A stretch of DNA of 64,000 nucleotides, taken from positions 3,720,001-3,784,000 of the forward strand of contig NZ_CP033219.1 in assembly GCF_004006175.1 (NCBI RefSeq). Reading direction: 5' to 3'. This DNA is from Parasedimentitalea marina. Its GTDB lineage: Bacteria; Pseudomonadota; Alphaproteobacteria; Rhodobacterales; Rhodobacteraceae. The stretch's first letter is position 1. Every line of letters starts with the position of its first letter. The position numbers and the translations under genes were made by a program. The notes below the pieces were generated by a model. It saw nothing but the letters and a program-made list of their open reading frames with translations. It searched no databases and had not been told where the DNA came from. Positions 2,578-24,000 of the stretch are shown here, one piece after another.

Positions 2578-4017
2578 TCAGTTCCCCTTGCCGGTAAAGG
2601 TTGTGTCTTTGTAGGCTCGCTCACCATCGGCGTCATCTTCGACCCAGATCCTAAACGGTGTCGCGTCTTGGGTCGAGGGGGCCGAACCCTTAGGACTGAT
2701 CACATAGACCCGCTGCAAATGCGCGACGTTGGCGTCTACCGAAACTGTGGTCTTCTCCGCCCCCTCAATCTCCATGCGCAGTGCCGGATCACCGGTGACA
2801 GAAAGCTGAAACTGGCGTTGCTCGCCATGTTTGTTCCGCAACCGCACGTCGTAGGTATTGCGGATAGAGCCATCAGACAGCGTAACAAATGTAGGATTGC
2901 GGACCGGTGCAACGGTCAGCTCTATGTCGGCGCGAATGAACAGGGCAAAGACCAGTCCAACCCCCACAAGGGTCCACATGGCTGTATACATAATGGTTCT
3001 AGGCCGCAGAATATGCTTCCAGATGTTGCGGGCAGGCTGGCCTGCTCGTCCATCCGTTTCATCGCTGACCGCCATATAGTCGATCAAGCCGCGCGGCTTG
3101 CCAATCTTGGCCATCACATCATCGCAGGCATCGATGCAAAGCGCGCAGGTGATGCACTCCATTTGCTGACCGTCGCGGATGTCGATACCCACCGGACAGA
3201 CATTGACGCAGGCCATACAGTCGATGCAATCGCCCTGCGGGGCCTCTGCCACCTCAGGCTTTGCCTTCCGCAGCTTGCCGCGCGGTTCACCGCGCCATTC
3301 GCGGTAACCCACAACCAGCGTGTCCTCATCCATCATTGCCGCCTGAATACGAGGCCAGGGGCAGGCGTAGATACAGATTTGCTCGCGCGCAAATCCGCCA
3401 AAGAAGAACGTCGTGGCGGTCAAGACGGCCATGGTGGTATAGGCGACTGGATGCGCGTTCCCGGTGATCAGGTCGACCAACAGGGTCGGCGCATCGGCAA
3501 AATAAAACACCCAGGCACCGCCGGTTGCCAGACCAATCAACAGCCAAACAGTCCACTTGGTGGCGCGAAGCCGCACTTTGCGCAGGTCCAGTTTCTTTTG
3601 GTGGTGCAGCCGCAACCGGGCATTCCGGTCCCCTTCGATCCAGCGCTCAACCAGGATATACAGGTCGGTCCAAACCGTCTGCGGGCAGGCATAGCCGCAC
3701 CAGACCCGCCCCAAGGCCGAGGTGAACAGGAACAGCCCCAGCCCGGCCATGATCAACAGGCCAGCAACAAAATAGAACTCATGCGGCCAGATCTCGATCC
3801 AGAAAAAGTAAAAGCGCCGGTTGGCCAGATCCAATAAGACGGCTTGATCCGGCAGGCTTGGCCCGCGGTCCCAACGAATCCAGGGGACCAGATAGTAAAT
3901 TCCCAATGTCACAGCCATTATGACCCACTTGAGGTTCCGGAATTTTCCTGACACTTTTTTCGGGAAAACTGGTTCTCTGGAGGCATAGAGACTAGGGGCT
4001 GGATTGGAATCGCTCAC
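2578..4017 (-). CDS. ccoG: CcoG/FixG/RdxA membrane iron-sulfur protein
   Basis: This 479-residue protein has about five membrane segments. Cysteine motifs include CGYACPQTVW and CIYACPWPR in the membrane part, and two ferredoxin-like clusters, CIDCMACVNVCP and CITCALCIDACD, near residues 260-300. The C-terminal third is an Ig-like periplasmic domain. The family acts as a cupric reductase/electron-transfer factor in cbb3 oxidase copper-centre assembly. It is the first gene of ccoGHI and has a perfect FNR box centred 67 bp upstream of its ATG, so oxygen-limited induction by FnrL is expected. Confidence 0.94.
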   Translation of the reverse strand: MSDSNPAPSLYASREPVFPKKVSGKFRNLKWVIMAVTLGIYYLVPWIRWDRGPSLPDQAVLLDLANRRFYFFWIEIWPHEFYFVAGLLIMAGLGLFLFTSALGRVWCGYACPQTVWTDLYILVERWIEGDRNARLRLHHQKKLDLRKVRLRATKWTVWLLIGLATGGAWVFYFADAPTLLVDLITGNAHPVAYTTMAVLTATTFFFGGFAREQICIYACPWPRIQAAMMDEDTLVVGYREWRGEPRGKLRKAKPEVAEAPQGDCIDCMACVNVCPVGIDIRDGQQMECITCALCIDACDDVMAKIGKPRGLIDYMAVSDETDGRAGQPARNIWKHILRPRTIMYTAMWTLVGVGLVFALFIRADIELTVAPVRNPTFVTLSDGSIRNTYDVRLRNKHGEQRQFQLSVTGDPALRMEIEGAEKTTVSVDANVAHLQRVYVISPKGSAPSTQDATPFRIWVEDDADGERAYKDTTFTGKGN

Positions 4018-4077: not shown

Positions 4078-4091
4078 TTGATATGGATCAA
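4078..4091. promoter_or_regulatory. FNR box upstream of ccoG
   Basis: TTGATATGGATCAA matches the FNR consensus TTGAT-N4-ATCAA in all ten defined bases. A class II arrangement would place the ccoG start site near 4043, but I see only a weak -10 there. Confidence 0.88.
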
Positions 4092-4139: not shown

Positions 4140-5003
4140 TTATTGTCGGCGTAGCCATTGAACAAACTGTCGCGCTGCAGGACGTAAGACACCGGGCCGC
4201 GTAACGATGTGATAACCACGGGTGTCAGTCTCGCAGAACAATTCGACAAGACGTCCGGATTTCAGATCGTCTTCGACAAAGTGGCGCACCATCACCACCA
4301 CACCTTGCCCGGCCCGCACCCCATCCAGCACTAGGTTTCCCGGCACCTGTACACGGCTTGCCACTTTGGAAGACTGCACCCCATAAGACGCAAGCCAATT
4401 AGAAACTTCGGTCCTGCCCAGCTCTTCCAACCAAGGATAATTCACCAATTCCGCTGGGGTGATTTTCCCTTTTGTCTTTAGCAGCCCAGGTGCTGCAACG
4501 ATGACAATCGGCGACGCAAGCAACATTTCGACCTCAAGCCCGGGCCAGTCCCCTTGGCCATACCGAATGGCCACATCAATTCCACCGGGCTTCAGGGTCA
4601 CCAGAGTGGGCGATGGGTCCAGCATCAGATTAATCTCCGGATGCAATGCACGAAACCCCGGCAGACGCGGCATCAACCAAGACGCCGCAAAAGACGAAGT
4701 GCAGGATATATGCAGGGGGCGGTCGGCATCGGCGCCTTTCAAATCCTGAACCGCGGCCCCTATAGCGCCAAACCCCAGATCCAAAGCACGGGCCAACTGG
4801 TCGCCCTCGGCGGTCAGGGACAGGGCACGCCCTGAGCGATCCAACAGCGATATGCCCAGATGGGTCTCTAACCCACGAAGATGCTGGCTTATAGCCGCAT
4901 GGCTTACATTAAGCGCCGCGCCGGCAAGCGTGACATTTCCAGTCTGAGAAAAGGCAGCAAAGGCCCTGAGTGATGCCAATGGAGGAAGGTCACGCCAATT
5001 CAT
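4140..5003 (-). CDS. LysR-family transcriptional regulator, GcvA-like
   Basis: This is a 287-residue LysR protein. The N-terminal winged helix (about residues 8-67) carries the usual motif of an Ala-rich recognition helix followed by ISQHLRGLETHLG. A periplasmic-binding-like effector domain follows (about 95-287). The opening LPPLASLRAFAAF is typical of the GcvA/AmpR-type branch. No target is evident. It is divergently transcribed from the small gene at 5104, only 100 bp away, so that gene is the obvious candidate target. It separates the ccoGHI and ccoNOQP blocks and is not a known part of cbb3 assembly. Confidence 0.88.
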   Translation of the reverse strand: MNWRDLPPLASLRAFAAFSQTGNVTLAGAALNVSHAAISQHLRGLETHLGISLLDRSGRALSLTAEGDQLARALDLGFGAIGAAVQDLKGADADRPLHISCTSSFAASWLMPRLPGFRALHPEINLMLDPSPTLVTLKPGGIDVAIRYGQGDWPGLEVEMLLASPIVIVAAPGLLKTKGKITPAELVNYPWLEELGRTEVSNWLASYGVQSSKVASRVQVPGNLVLDGVRAGQGVVVMVRHFVEDDLKSGRLVELFCETDTRGYHIVTRPGVLRPAARQFVQWLRRQ

Positions 5004-5103: not shown

Positions 5104-5289
5104 ATGCTCACAATCTACGCAAACGCCTTCAGGACTGCTACTCGCATGGGGCCAACCAACACTGTCGACGCAGCCGCCGTGGACAAACCGTCAAAGTCCC
5201 GCTGGCTGCCAAGTGGCCATTGGTGGGTGCAACAGGATCAGGGCACTTCGCGGTCCGATCACCAGTATGGCTACAAGGCCCGTCAATAG
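5104..5289 (+). CDS. small unknown protein, 61 aa, divergent from LysR gene
   Basis: I do not recognise this family. The case for a real gene is a good ribosome-binding site (GGAGG, seven bases before the ATG), a start placed just downstream of a divergent LysR promoter region, and an ordinary soluble composition. The C-terminal half is rich in Trp, Gln, His and Tyr (SGHWWVQQDQG), and there is no signal peptide or membrane segment. The motif-like SGHWW is the best handle for a homology search. It may be the target of the neighbouring LysR regulator; that is inference from the divergent layout only. Confidence 0.5.
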   Translation: MLTIYANAFRTATRMGPTNTVDAAAVDKPSKSRWLPSGHWWVQQDQGTSRSDHQYGYKARQ

Positions 5290-5321
5290 TCAGCGTTCTT
5301 TAGCTTGACTATGGGATTGGT

Positions 5322-5376
5322 AAAAAAGCGTCGGCGTTCCAGGAAACGCGCGAACAGATCGGAACACCGACGCTTT
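5322..5376 (-). terminator. intrinsic terminator of the candidate sRNA
   Basis: Arms 5325-5340 and 5361-5376 pair with a single mismatch, and the minus strand continues into TTTTTT. On the plus strand the stem is followed by TTTGCCCC, so it may also weakly stop transcription from the small gene ending at 5289. Confidence 0.75.
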
Positions 5377-5464
5377 GCCCCACTCCACCTGCATATATGC
5401 ACACGAAGGGGAATTTCCGGCACTCATCACTCCGCTATCAGTTTGCGAACCGTTGGGTGCCACT
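5322..5464 (-). ncRNA. candidate FnrL-activated small RNA (~143 nt)
   Basis: Three signals line up on the minus strand in otherwise empty DNA. A perfect FNR box lies at 5499-5512. A -10-like TTTAAG at 5476-5471 implies a start at 5464, which puts the box at exactly -41.5, the class II activator position. A strong intrinsic terminator follows, made of a 16-bp near-perfect stem (5361-5376 with 5325-5340) and six Ts (5327-5322). No convincing protein is encoded: a 45-codon frame from 5427 runs through the terminator. The parts are seen; the RNA itself is inferred. Confidence 0.55.
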
Positions 5465-5498
5465 AGACGTCTTAAACCATCAAATGGTCACACCCTGT

Positions 5499-5512
5499 TT
5501 GATCCCGATCAA
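5499..5512. promoter_or_regulatory. FNR box in the ccoP / small-gene intergenic region
   Basis: TTGATCCCGATCAA matches all ten conserved FNR positions. It lies downstream of the ccoP terminator and of the small gene at 5104, so neither adjacent gene can be its target. On the minus strand a TTTAAG -10 lies 22 bp beyond it. The plus strand shows no -10 at that spacing. Confidence 0.85.
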
Positions 5513-5592
5513 CATCCGGTCAGAAATTACACCCAAGACGCGGATTTCCCCATATTGACGCATGCCGGATCTGAACGGGGCACAGGGGTGAA

Positions 5593-5669: not shown

Positions 5670-6548
5670 TTACTCGCCGCCGCCCAATTGGTGGACATAA
5701 GCGGTAACTGCACGGATCTGCCATTCGGTCAGGCGCGTGTTCCAGGCTGGCATCACGCCATAGCGGGAGTTGTTGACCGTATCCGACAGTGCTTCGTAGT
5801 CACCTCCATACAGCCAGATCGCATCCGCCAAATTCGGCGCACCCTGCTCACGGTCGCCTGTGCCGTCTTCGGCATGGCACGATGAACAGTTATCTTCAAA
5901 GACAACTGCGCCCTCCGCCACTTTAGAGGCATCCTGCGCGTCGCCGGACAGTGACATGACAAAGTTCACGACCTGATCGATTTCTTCCTTTTCCAACAGC
6001 TCGTCGCGACCAAAAGCCGGCATCTCAGAATAGCGGGCATCATCGCTGTCTTCGTTGCGAATACCGTGGGTAATGGTGGTGTGGATTGCCTCCATGTCAC
6101 CGCCCCACAGCCAATCGTCGTCCAGCAGGTTCGGATAGCCCGAGCCCATCCGGATACCATCGGCACCCGAGCCGTGGCACTGGGCGCACCAGGTGGCGAA
6201 CACCGCTTTGCCTGCCGAAGAGGCATAGGTGTTCAGCTCTGCATCACCCGAAATTGCTGTCAGATCAACCGAGGCCAGCTTGGCATTGATGGCGGCGTTG
6301 CCCTCTTCCACTGCGGCGATTTCATTTGCCACATCGGCGCGGGTTGACCAGCCAAGCACACCTGTCGTTGCCTGATTGATCATCGGCCAGGCTGGATAGG
6401 CGATGGTATAGCCGATGCCCCAGATGATGGTCAGATAGAGCGACCACAACCACCAGCGTGGCATCGGGTTGTCAAACTCTTCGATCCCGTCCCAGACGTG
6501 ACCGGTGGTGTTAGGATCGCCCTCAAACTTCTTCGATTTTTTGGTCAT
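5670..6548 (-). CDS. ccoP: cbb3 cytochrome oxidase diheme subunit III (CcoP)
   Basis: This 292-residue protein has an N-terminal membrane anchor (about 31-55) and two periplasmic cytochrome c domains. The heme motifs are CAQCH (C121-H125) and CSSCH (C221-H225). Likely axial methionines lie in SEMPAFG (about 176) and GVMPAW (about 271). CcoP takes electrons from soluble or membrane cytochromes c and passes them to CcoO. Its ATG overlaps the ccoQ stop by four bases, so the two are translationally coupled. The length and domain order are normal for the family. Confidence 0.97.
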
Positions 6549-9122: not shown

Positions 9123-9215
9123 ACTATGTCCCTTTATCTTGCCCCGCGCGATTCTTTTGCCGCGCCAGACGGATTTAGACTGACCGCTTGATGCAAAATG
9201 AAAGGGCGCCGTGCT

Positions 9216-9229
9216 TTGATCTGCATCAA
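9216..9229. promoter_or_regulatory. FNR box between ccoN and the Usp gene
   Basis: TTGATCTGCATCAA is a perfect FNR site. Its centre is 101 bp from the ccoN ATG and 96 bp from the usp ATG, so one dimer could serve both divergent promoters. The -10 sequences at the class II distance are weak on both sides, so I cannot say which gene it favours. Confidence 0.88.
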
Positions 9230-10961: not shown

Positions 10962-10975
10962 TTGATCTGGGTCAA
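10962..10975. promoter_or_regulatory. FNR box between fnrL and hemN
   Basis: TTGATCTGGGTCAA has one mismatch to the FNR consensus. Its centre is 42.5 bp before the hemN ATG, with TACATT at 10999-11004 as a candidate -10. On the other side it nearly touches the fnrL start codon, a position suited to repression. Confidence 0.82.
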
Positions 10976-23640: not shown

Positions 23641-23693
23641 CTCTGCGCTGGCACGGCTTGTCTTTCATCCCGTAGCCGCCTATATCGGGATTC

Positions 23694-23787
23694 GAGAGGT
23701 TGGCGCGGGCAAGCGCCTCGCCAACCTGGTCAGATCCGGAAGGAAGCAGCCACAACGAGCCCCGCTTGGGTCGATGTCCAGCCTCTC
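23694..23787 (+). ncRNA. ffs: signal recognition particle RNA (4.5S type)
   Basis: The core GGTCAGATCCGGAAGGAAGCAGCC, described here by its parts, runs over about 23727-23752. It contains the GGAA tetraloop and the AGCAGCC internal-loop strand bound by Ffh. The outer ends GAGAGG and CCTCTC pair to close a rod of 94 nt. This is the small bacterial SRP RNA that guides inner-membrane proteins with Ffh and FtsY. The ends are set by the closing helix and may be off by a few bases. Confidence 0.93.
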
Positions 23788-24000
23788 ACCTTATTCGAAG
23801 CCTGCGCCGCAGGCCCACACCCTATCGGAGCATTGCTCCCACAGCCTGACCGGAGGGCCTGATGATTGTAGCAGTACCGACCCTTCAGGCAGCGCTCTCC
23901 TGATCTGGCCCACGGCCAACTCCCTGCCTGAACACCCCTCCTGTTGTGATGCGCGCCTGCCATCGCATAGGCCTTTGTACGTTCAATTACAGGCAGAGCC
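23788..24000 (+). other. ffs-rsgA spacer with small hairpins
   Basis: This stretch of 213 bases has no gene. It begins with a hairpin GCCTGCG-C-CGCAGGC at 23800-23814, then GGAGCATTGCTCC, which may help 3' end formation of ffs. No clear T tract follows. The rsgA promoter should be at its right end. Confidence 0.5.

Follow-up and report, generated by a model that had tools for sequence, protein, structure and literature searches.

What does a perfect FNR box drive behind the last gene of the ccoNOQP operon in Parasedimentitalea marina? The box lies in the gap between ccoP and a LysR-type regulator gene, within a stretch of 64,000 nucleotides of contig NZ_CP033219.1 (3,720,001 to 3,784,000; genome G000) which was analysed as a whole and which we call the window. 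An earlier note, made from the letters alone, had described the box as pointing at neither neighbour and as driving a stand-alone small RNA gene, analogous in logic to E. coli FnrS and without prior description. The features of the locus are listed in Table 1. The gene at 2578-4017, which we take to be ccoG by recognition, was used as the ccoG query.

Table 1 Features of the predicted RNA unit and its neighbours (positions count from the first nucleotide of the window)
Feature	Position	Strand	Remarks
FNR box TTGATCCCGATCAA	5499-5512	-	Centre at -41.5 of the predicted start; 10/10 in 6/7 aligned genomes, 9/10 in the seventh
-10 element TTTAAG	5476-5471	-	Positions -12 to -7; TTTAAN in 6/7 aligned genomes
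Predicted 143-nt FNR-dependent sRNA	5322-5464	-	Predicted from promoter geometry, terminator and folding z
Terminator hairpin with U6, HRC-8-4 instance	5322-5376	-	CM match; covariation in 116 sequences
20-nt loop GATCTGTTCGCGCGTTTCCT	5341-5360	-	Proposed pairing surface
Loop core TGTTCGCGCGTTTCC	5356-5342	-	Exact in 114/295 genera
ccoNOQP	9122-5670	-	Upstream of the predicted sRNA
ccoP, final gene of ccoNOQP	5670-6548	-	Pfam FixP_N and Cytochrome_CBB3; upstream neighbour
61-aa small ORF	5104-5289	+	Convergent to the sRNA, divergent from hvrB; parts the hairpin from hvrB
LysR-type regulator at the hvrB position	4140-5003	-	Pfam HTH_1 and LysR_substrate
Separate FNR box of ccoG	4078-4091	-	Downstream of the hairpin
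ccoG (rdxB)	2578-4017	-	GTG start; target candidate in other genera; leader without pairing site here

Three perfect FNR boxes were found in the window, at 5499-5512, at 4078-4091 (before ccoG) and at 9216-9229 (in the gap between ccoN and uspA), compared to a mean of 0.06 and a maximum of 1 in 100 dinucleotide shuffles. The centre of the first box lies between 5505 and 5506 and the TTTAAG occupies nucleotides 30-35 from this centre, which places the predicted +1 at 5464, at +42 from the box centre. The perfect box and the spacing of exactly -41.5 given in the earlier note were thereby borne out, by motif scan and by position count respectively. In the hairpin, 5376-5361 pair with 5340-5325 and six Ts follow at 5327-5322, with the outer stem pairs overlapping the T run. 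The 144-nt RNA 5464-5321 has a predicted fold of -63.5 kcal/mol (z = -4.25) and the hairpin by itself one of -28.8 kcal/mol (z = -4.59), and in neither case did any of 200 shuffles equal this. The strong terminator with six Ts which had been said to end a unit of about 143 nt at 5322 is upheld by these z values and by its being kept in the genus.

A simple promoter and terminator scan of the window called neither a promoter nor a terminator at 5322-5512. The scan is blind to this unit because its definitions cover only pairs of sigma-70 hexamers and loop lengths of 3-8 nt, so that an activator-dependent promoter and a 20-nt loop are invisible to it. Our covariance model (CM) matched the window at 5316-5380 with 73.5 bits (E = 1.3e-13), the window sequence being one of those used for building the model. 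No Rfam family reached its gathering score in the sRNA region and none matched at E ≤ 1 in 5250-5550. At sequence level, the prediction of an FNR-controlled hairpin RNA at 5322-5464 is well supported.

When 61 genomes were searched at the DNA level, the sRNA region was present in 7/7 same-genus relatives and in 7/53 other genomes. Among the same-genus relatives the FNR box was complete (10/10) in six and 9/10 in one, the hairpin was present in all seven and the -10 element in six. In an alignment of seven genomes (the window and six relatives; G001, which has box, -10 and hairpin, was left out as a near-duplicate of G004) the hairpin was again found in all seven, and the -10 element read TTTAAN in six and TTGATT in G006. 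The body between promoter and hairpin was variable and contained indels. A drifting body with a kept box and hairpin is what one would expect if the hairpin is the functional part of a transcription unit. A lack of joint conservation of box and terminator in relatives, which the earlier note had named as refuting an sRNA, was not seen: both were present in 7/7 (box at least 9/10).

We compared the hairpin to published RNA motifs. The main text of PMC8632094 describes a motif, HRC-8-4, with 160 representatives in Rhodobacterales only, which sits in the gap from ccoNOQP to ccoGHIS or ahead of hvrB and has a terminator stem with a conserved tip, and for which a role as riboswitch or as binding site of HvrB is guessed there. 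The window hairpin is almost certainly this motif, as identified by taxon, place and architecture as described in that text and not by consensus sequence. With regard to taxon, the covariance search across Rhodobacteraceae which the earlier note had suggested gave CM matches in 141/295 family genera under strict filters; among 289 genomes drawn from the whole class, the matches were 2 family members and 2 marginal hits outside the family (E = 0.005-0.007). With regard to place, the hairpin lies between ccoP and hvrB/ccoG, as it does in 108 genera, and with regard to architecture it has a terminator-like stem with a conserved tip. The claim of no prior description therefore fails for the hairpin and stands for the FNR promoter and the sRNA nature: the main text of PMC8632094 contains 0 occurrences of FNR, and its passages on the motif mention no own promoter, no two forms and no ccoG pairing. 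Among the papers searched only PMC8632094 names HRC-8-4, and no description of the hairpin as an sRNA or of its FNR promoter was found in the literature searched, which most subscription journals lie outside. Studies of small RNAs in Ruegeria pomeroyi and in Paracoccus denitrificans mention neither ccoP nor cbb3 in their main texts (the Ruegeria pomeroyi text also lacks ccoG and has one unrelated 'cytochrome'), and the accessible text of PMC3320616, PMC9549626 and PMC9409073, retrieved for ccoP or ccoNOQP together with sRNA, describes no such RNA.

The 15-nt loop core was found exactly in 114 of the family genera and a reversed control pattern in 2. Nine loci without cco or LysR context, including L012, and one duplicate sequence (L005) were removed before alignment. 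Across 116 aligned sequences, 93% of stem cells were paired, versus 78.4% in shuffled alignments and at most 53.4% in slid controls, and 298 stem cells showed double changes versus 97.5 after shuffling. Double changes occurred in 12/13 stem pairs, a count which is weak as evidence because 32/500 shuffles reach it. It should be noted that the invariance of the loop is built in by construction, since the 116 sequences were picked for their loop; this does not apply to the stem covariation.

The hairpin-bearing genera among the matches listed include Ruegeria, Phaeobacter, Leisingera, Shimia, Roseovarius, Thioclava and Paracoccus. We took the exact 17-mer matches seen in unrelated phyla to be chance hits; the one in Magnetovibrio lacked cco context. 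No CM match was found in 154/295 family genera; 70 of these 154 genomes were searched, of which 57 encode a FixP_N protein, and the 30 loci returned were read. In members matched by the CM only (32 genomes by subtraction, of which 17 were fetched) the second half of the loop varies and CTGTTCGC is its most stable part. This sequence also lies within 187 nt after ccoP in 10/30 CM-negative loci (in one of the ten, L388, it is by reading inside ccoG); its presence after ccoP in such loci indicates that the family is probably wider than 141 genera. Three hairpin copies were seen at a spacing of about 91 nt in G217 (L046), and, among the matches listed, two hairpin or core copies each in Pseudoruegeria aquimaris and two Rhodobacteraceae isolates (the group of L046, L138, L163 and L168).

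The hairpin was found in two forms. Counting one genome per genus, it lies within 110 nt of the ccoP stop in 68/108 genera (attached form; seven same-genus loci and 2 of the 3 tandem L046 copies were left out of this count). In the detached form (40 genera) it has its own intergenic FNR box in 39/40, compared to 0.3% in letter-shuffled segments, which extends the joint conservation of box and terminator beyond the genus. The boxes are present at 34 of 35 hairpins farther from ccoP (L027, at 140 nt from ccoP, has none) and at 5/5 hairpins for which the locus shows no recognised gene upstream. This rule holds at ccoP distances up to 2.3 kb; in a Leisingera genome ccoP is 5.9 kb from a hairpin with its own FNR box, and Shimia thalassica has one attached copy and one own-box copy. 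The -10 element of own-box units occurs at a single spacing, with a mean TATAAT score of 2.9 at offset 23 (next best 2.08), and across the 39 genera, window included, the position that should be -11 holds A in 90% and the one that should be -7 holds T in 59%. Of the 39 units with an own promoter, 11 have a predicted leader of just 16-29 nt ahead of the stem, which leaves little room for other elements and makes the shortest predicted transcripts approximately the hairpin alone.

Attached hairpins had an own FNR box in 0/68 (40-200 nt upstream, coding sequence included), an absence which is partly geometric; a 9-of-10 rule over 320 nt gave two boxes, both inside ccoP. An FNR box was found within 250 nt of ccoN in 20/20 genera fetched, and as judged from this layout the attached hairpins are part of the FNR-driven ccoNOQP unit. 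At least 5 Ts in the 8 nt after the stem were found for 25/39 own-box hairpins and 33/69 others. On a CcoG tree with 83 labelled rows (FastTree, without support values or a shuffle test) the form switches 16 times or more. The stand-alone gene of the earlier note thus describes this genus, where the hairpin is detached with its own box, and does not describe the 68 genera with the attached form.

A complement of the loop was first seen at the start of ccoG while CM-negative loci were being read. We examined this site, GCGAACAG, in the ccoG leader (the translation-initiation region) of 118 genomes, comprising 93 with the exact core, 17 matched by the CM only and 8 CM-negative loci which had been picked for a recognisable loop and not for the site, although it was among them that the site was noticed. 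It was present in 17/118 genomes versus 0.13 in shuffled sequences (8-11 nt in 16), including 5/93 exact-core, 5/17 CM-only and 7/8 CM-negative loci. In control leaders, redundant loci included, it was absent: ccoN 0/44, ccoP 0/204, lysR 0/108, ccoO 0/166 and uspA 0/40; in fnrL leaders it was found in 1/4. Any contiguous complement of at least 8 nt occurred in 23/118 ccoG leaders versus 1.05 expected, and in several genomes a Shine-Dalgarno-like AGGA is part of the pairing site or directly adjoins it. Of the 19 CM-negative loci whose ccoG start could be read, the 7 with the loop all had the site (7/7) and the 12 without the loop all lacked it (0/12). A variant loop, CTGTTCGCAC, is matched by the leader sequence GTGCGAACAG in L387 and L271; the site does not track the loop variant in L376, L395 and L263.

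The start codon of ccoG was GTG or TTG in 89 and ATG in 29 of the 118 genomes, and GTG/TTG leaders often read CGGAG(C/T)GATTCC. The exact site is confined to ATG-start ccoG (17/29 versus 0/89 for GTG/TTG), with other complements of 8-9 nt in 6/89 of the GTG/TTG-start genes. Over all 118 genomes the duplex energy of loop and ccoG showed no overall excess (-15.32 versus -15.37 for mispaired combinations, mean z = -0.45). The site counts and the co-occurrence of loop and site give good support to a predicted antisense action of the loop in a subset of genera; the duplex energies over all genomes and the ccoG of the window count against it. In the window the ccoG gene has a GTG start and its leader lacks the pairing site, so that the RNA in this genus would need another target.

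We also searched for other targets. The ccoN leader was rejected, as it was no better than shuffles (mean z = -0.05, 20 genera). The generic loop has a 17-nt complement near the start of prkA in G005 and, with 1 mismatch, in G000; prkA was rejected as a general target because it was found in only 6/61 genera searched. The fnrL leader contains a complement of at least 8 nt in 4/26 versus 0.53 expected, a weak lead to fnrL as a possible target. Exact 11-mer complements of the loop in 8 same-genus genomes revealed no recurrent initiation-region target, in a survey which covered 28/28 matches of one pattern and 30/103 of the other.

How the conserved hairpin acts can be read in several ways. The guess published with HRC-8-4 would make it a cis-acting riboswitch embedded in a terminator, or a protein-binding attenuator, of downstream hvrB or ccoG, and the terminator-like stem, the conserved loop and the usual position of the hairpin ahead of a co-oriented ccoG or hvrB are all as this would have it. 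However, such an element should be seated in the leader of the gene which it controls, and in the window the next ORF after the hairpin is on the other strand, between the hairpin and hvrB. A similar ORF is found at this position in 31/44 hvrB-type loci (24/37 with one per genus; the 44 include 8 from this genus with the window, and likeness was judged by reading). In 54 genera ccoG is the first gene recognised after the hairpin, within 600 nt, and in 51/54 of them the gap between the two holds an FNR box, so that transcription of ccoG would begin downstream of the hairpin. In the shortest units only 16-29 nt lie ahead of the stem, and the 3-kb locus L012 (G016), with a hairpin scoring 70.5 bits and an FNR box 198 nt upstream, contains no cco gene match and neither ccoG nor hvrB; its hairpin lies between uspA and what we take, by reading, to be an ORF resembling a heavy-metal P-type ATPase. 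We consider control of this kind quite improbable. The two forms, the own boxes and the shortest units speak, as predictions from sequence, for an sRNA that acts in trans under FNR control, and against a riboswitch in a leader.

Pairing could also take place in cis. In all 17/17 site-bearing loci ccoG lies 98-485 nt downstream of the hairpin in the same orientation, so that on a read-through RNA from ccoNOQP into ccoG the loop might pair with and silence the ccoG ribosome-binding site 100-480 nt away, and only the mRNA from the ccoG promoter would be translated. This leaves unexplained the detached hairpins with their own FNR promoters, the loci in which hvrB or up to 2.3 kb lies between, and the window, which has no site, and it seems to us unlikely. 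Another reading sees an elaborate terminator or 3'-end stabiliser of the cco operon with no regulatory role, the detached promoters being remnants; it draws on the strong fold and on the location of the hairpin at the ccoNOQP 3' end in most genera. Yet termination needs no conserved loop, the detached copies have retained their box in 39/40 genera with the -10 at a fixed spacing, and the loop co-occurs with the ccoG-leader site, and we give this reading very little credence.

We compared the predicted sRNA to RNAs which respond to oxygen in other bacteria, as described in the parts of the sources available to us. FnrS of E. coli is a short RNA activated by FNR at low oxygen (PMC8139620), and the comparison drawn in the earlier note stands for the logic of a short FNR-activated RNA, given the predicted FNR-type promoter with its box at -41.5 and its -10 element. 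It does not stand for homology, as there is no Rfam match, the locus is different and here the terminator-hairpin loop would be the functional part. PcrZ of Rhodobacter sphaeroides is a low-oxygen sRNA of similar length (136 nt), PrrA-/FnrL-linked and processed to products of about 55 nt (PMC6238624, PMC8139620). The hairpin is not PcrZ, which differs in locus and sequence, and the PcrZ region (L253) gave no CM match up to E = 0.1. The same genome (G082, taken as R. sphaeroides, with a 100% PufX match) has a diverged hairpin of 32.7 bits in the gap between ccoP and rdxB (L252 2676-2744, minus strand; C4:2436675-2436743), and CrpK and MppG ChIP peaks are listed for rdxBHIS at this site (PMC4263372). 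DenR (sRNA-29) of Paracoccus denitrificans also acts on low-oxygen respiration in the same family; it was rejected as a counterpart, being described as antisense to Pden_0526, highest under aerobic conditions, and thus at another place and under other regulation (PMC6686037). By its description, the enteric NarS, an FNR/NarL-linked sRNA from the 3' end of the narK mRNA (PMC8139620), resembles the hairpin in its proposed role as an FNR-linked 3'-end sRNA.

Several other features of the locus are worthy of note. The small ORF at 5104-5289 had no Pfam match (window copy), and in many hvrB-type loci a small protein family with a pattern of about MLxIxAxSFxTATR...RWLPxGHWW is encoded divergently from hvrB. 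In the ccoN 5' region (window 9123-9190, minus strand; L403-L422) AAGGGAC precedes the start in 20/20 genera and GAATCG is found in 14/20, often between complementary arms, and this region is possibly a second RNA element. Directly before the fnrL start is an FNR-type box with 1 mismatch (10962-10975), a layout which by reading recurs in 29/30 fnrL loci and makes fnrL autoregulation likely. A bacterial small SRP RNA (Rfam RF00169) is found at 23693-23791 on the plus strand.

Taken together, we think it likely that the locus encodes a low-oxygen FNR-driven sRNA with an antisense terminator loop, which has ccoG as a target in some genera and another target here. Counting against this are the duplex energies without an overall excess, the family genera that lack a CM match in spite of a FixP_N protein, and the hairpins with fewer than 5 Ts in the 8 nt behind the stem. 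From the conservation, covariation, promoter geometry and FNR linkage of the hairpin, as read from the sequences, we infer its transcription and processing: the 5322-5464 RNA would arise under low oxygen from a class II promoter activated by FNR and would end at the intrinsic-terminator hairpin, the large and strongly conserved loop of which would be its working part. HRC-8-4 hairpins would nearly always be under FNR control. In most genera (attached form) they would close the ccoNOQP mRNA, which is FNR-activated and may release a stable 3' fragment; in the others, this genus among them (detached form), they would be separate units driven by an FNR promoter of their own. From the complementarity and co-occurrence of loop and site we infer pairing in vivo, the direction of its effect and a separate target in this genus. 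The loop would work by antisense pairing, in a subset of genera with the ribosome-binding region of ccoG, the first gene of the assembly operon ccoGHIS, where it would most simply repress ccoG translation and so balance the assembly factor against the oxidase. We see about equal grounds for and against the broader proposal that HRC-8-4 is a family-wide FNR-locked sRNA which was born as the 3' end of the cbb3 mRNA and repeatedly gained its own FNR promoter on separation from the operon, its exposed loop being the antisense seed which couples oxidase synthesis to translation of ccoGHIS and, in lineages like the present one, to other targets, with fnrL leaders as a weak lead.

The analysis turns a published motif without an assigned function into a testable regulator with a predicted promoter, an oxygen signal via FNR and a probable seed, which in some genera would also have a probable target. 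If true, the cbb3 oxidase of marine Roseobacter-type bacteria and of Paracoccus and Rhodobacter relatives would also be regulated at a post-transcriptional level, and one hairpin would have passed repeatedly between the 3' end of an mRNA and a stand-alone sRNA.
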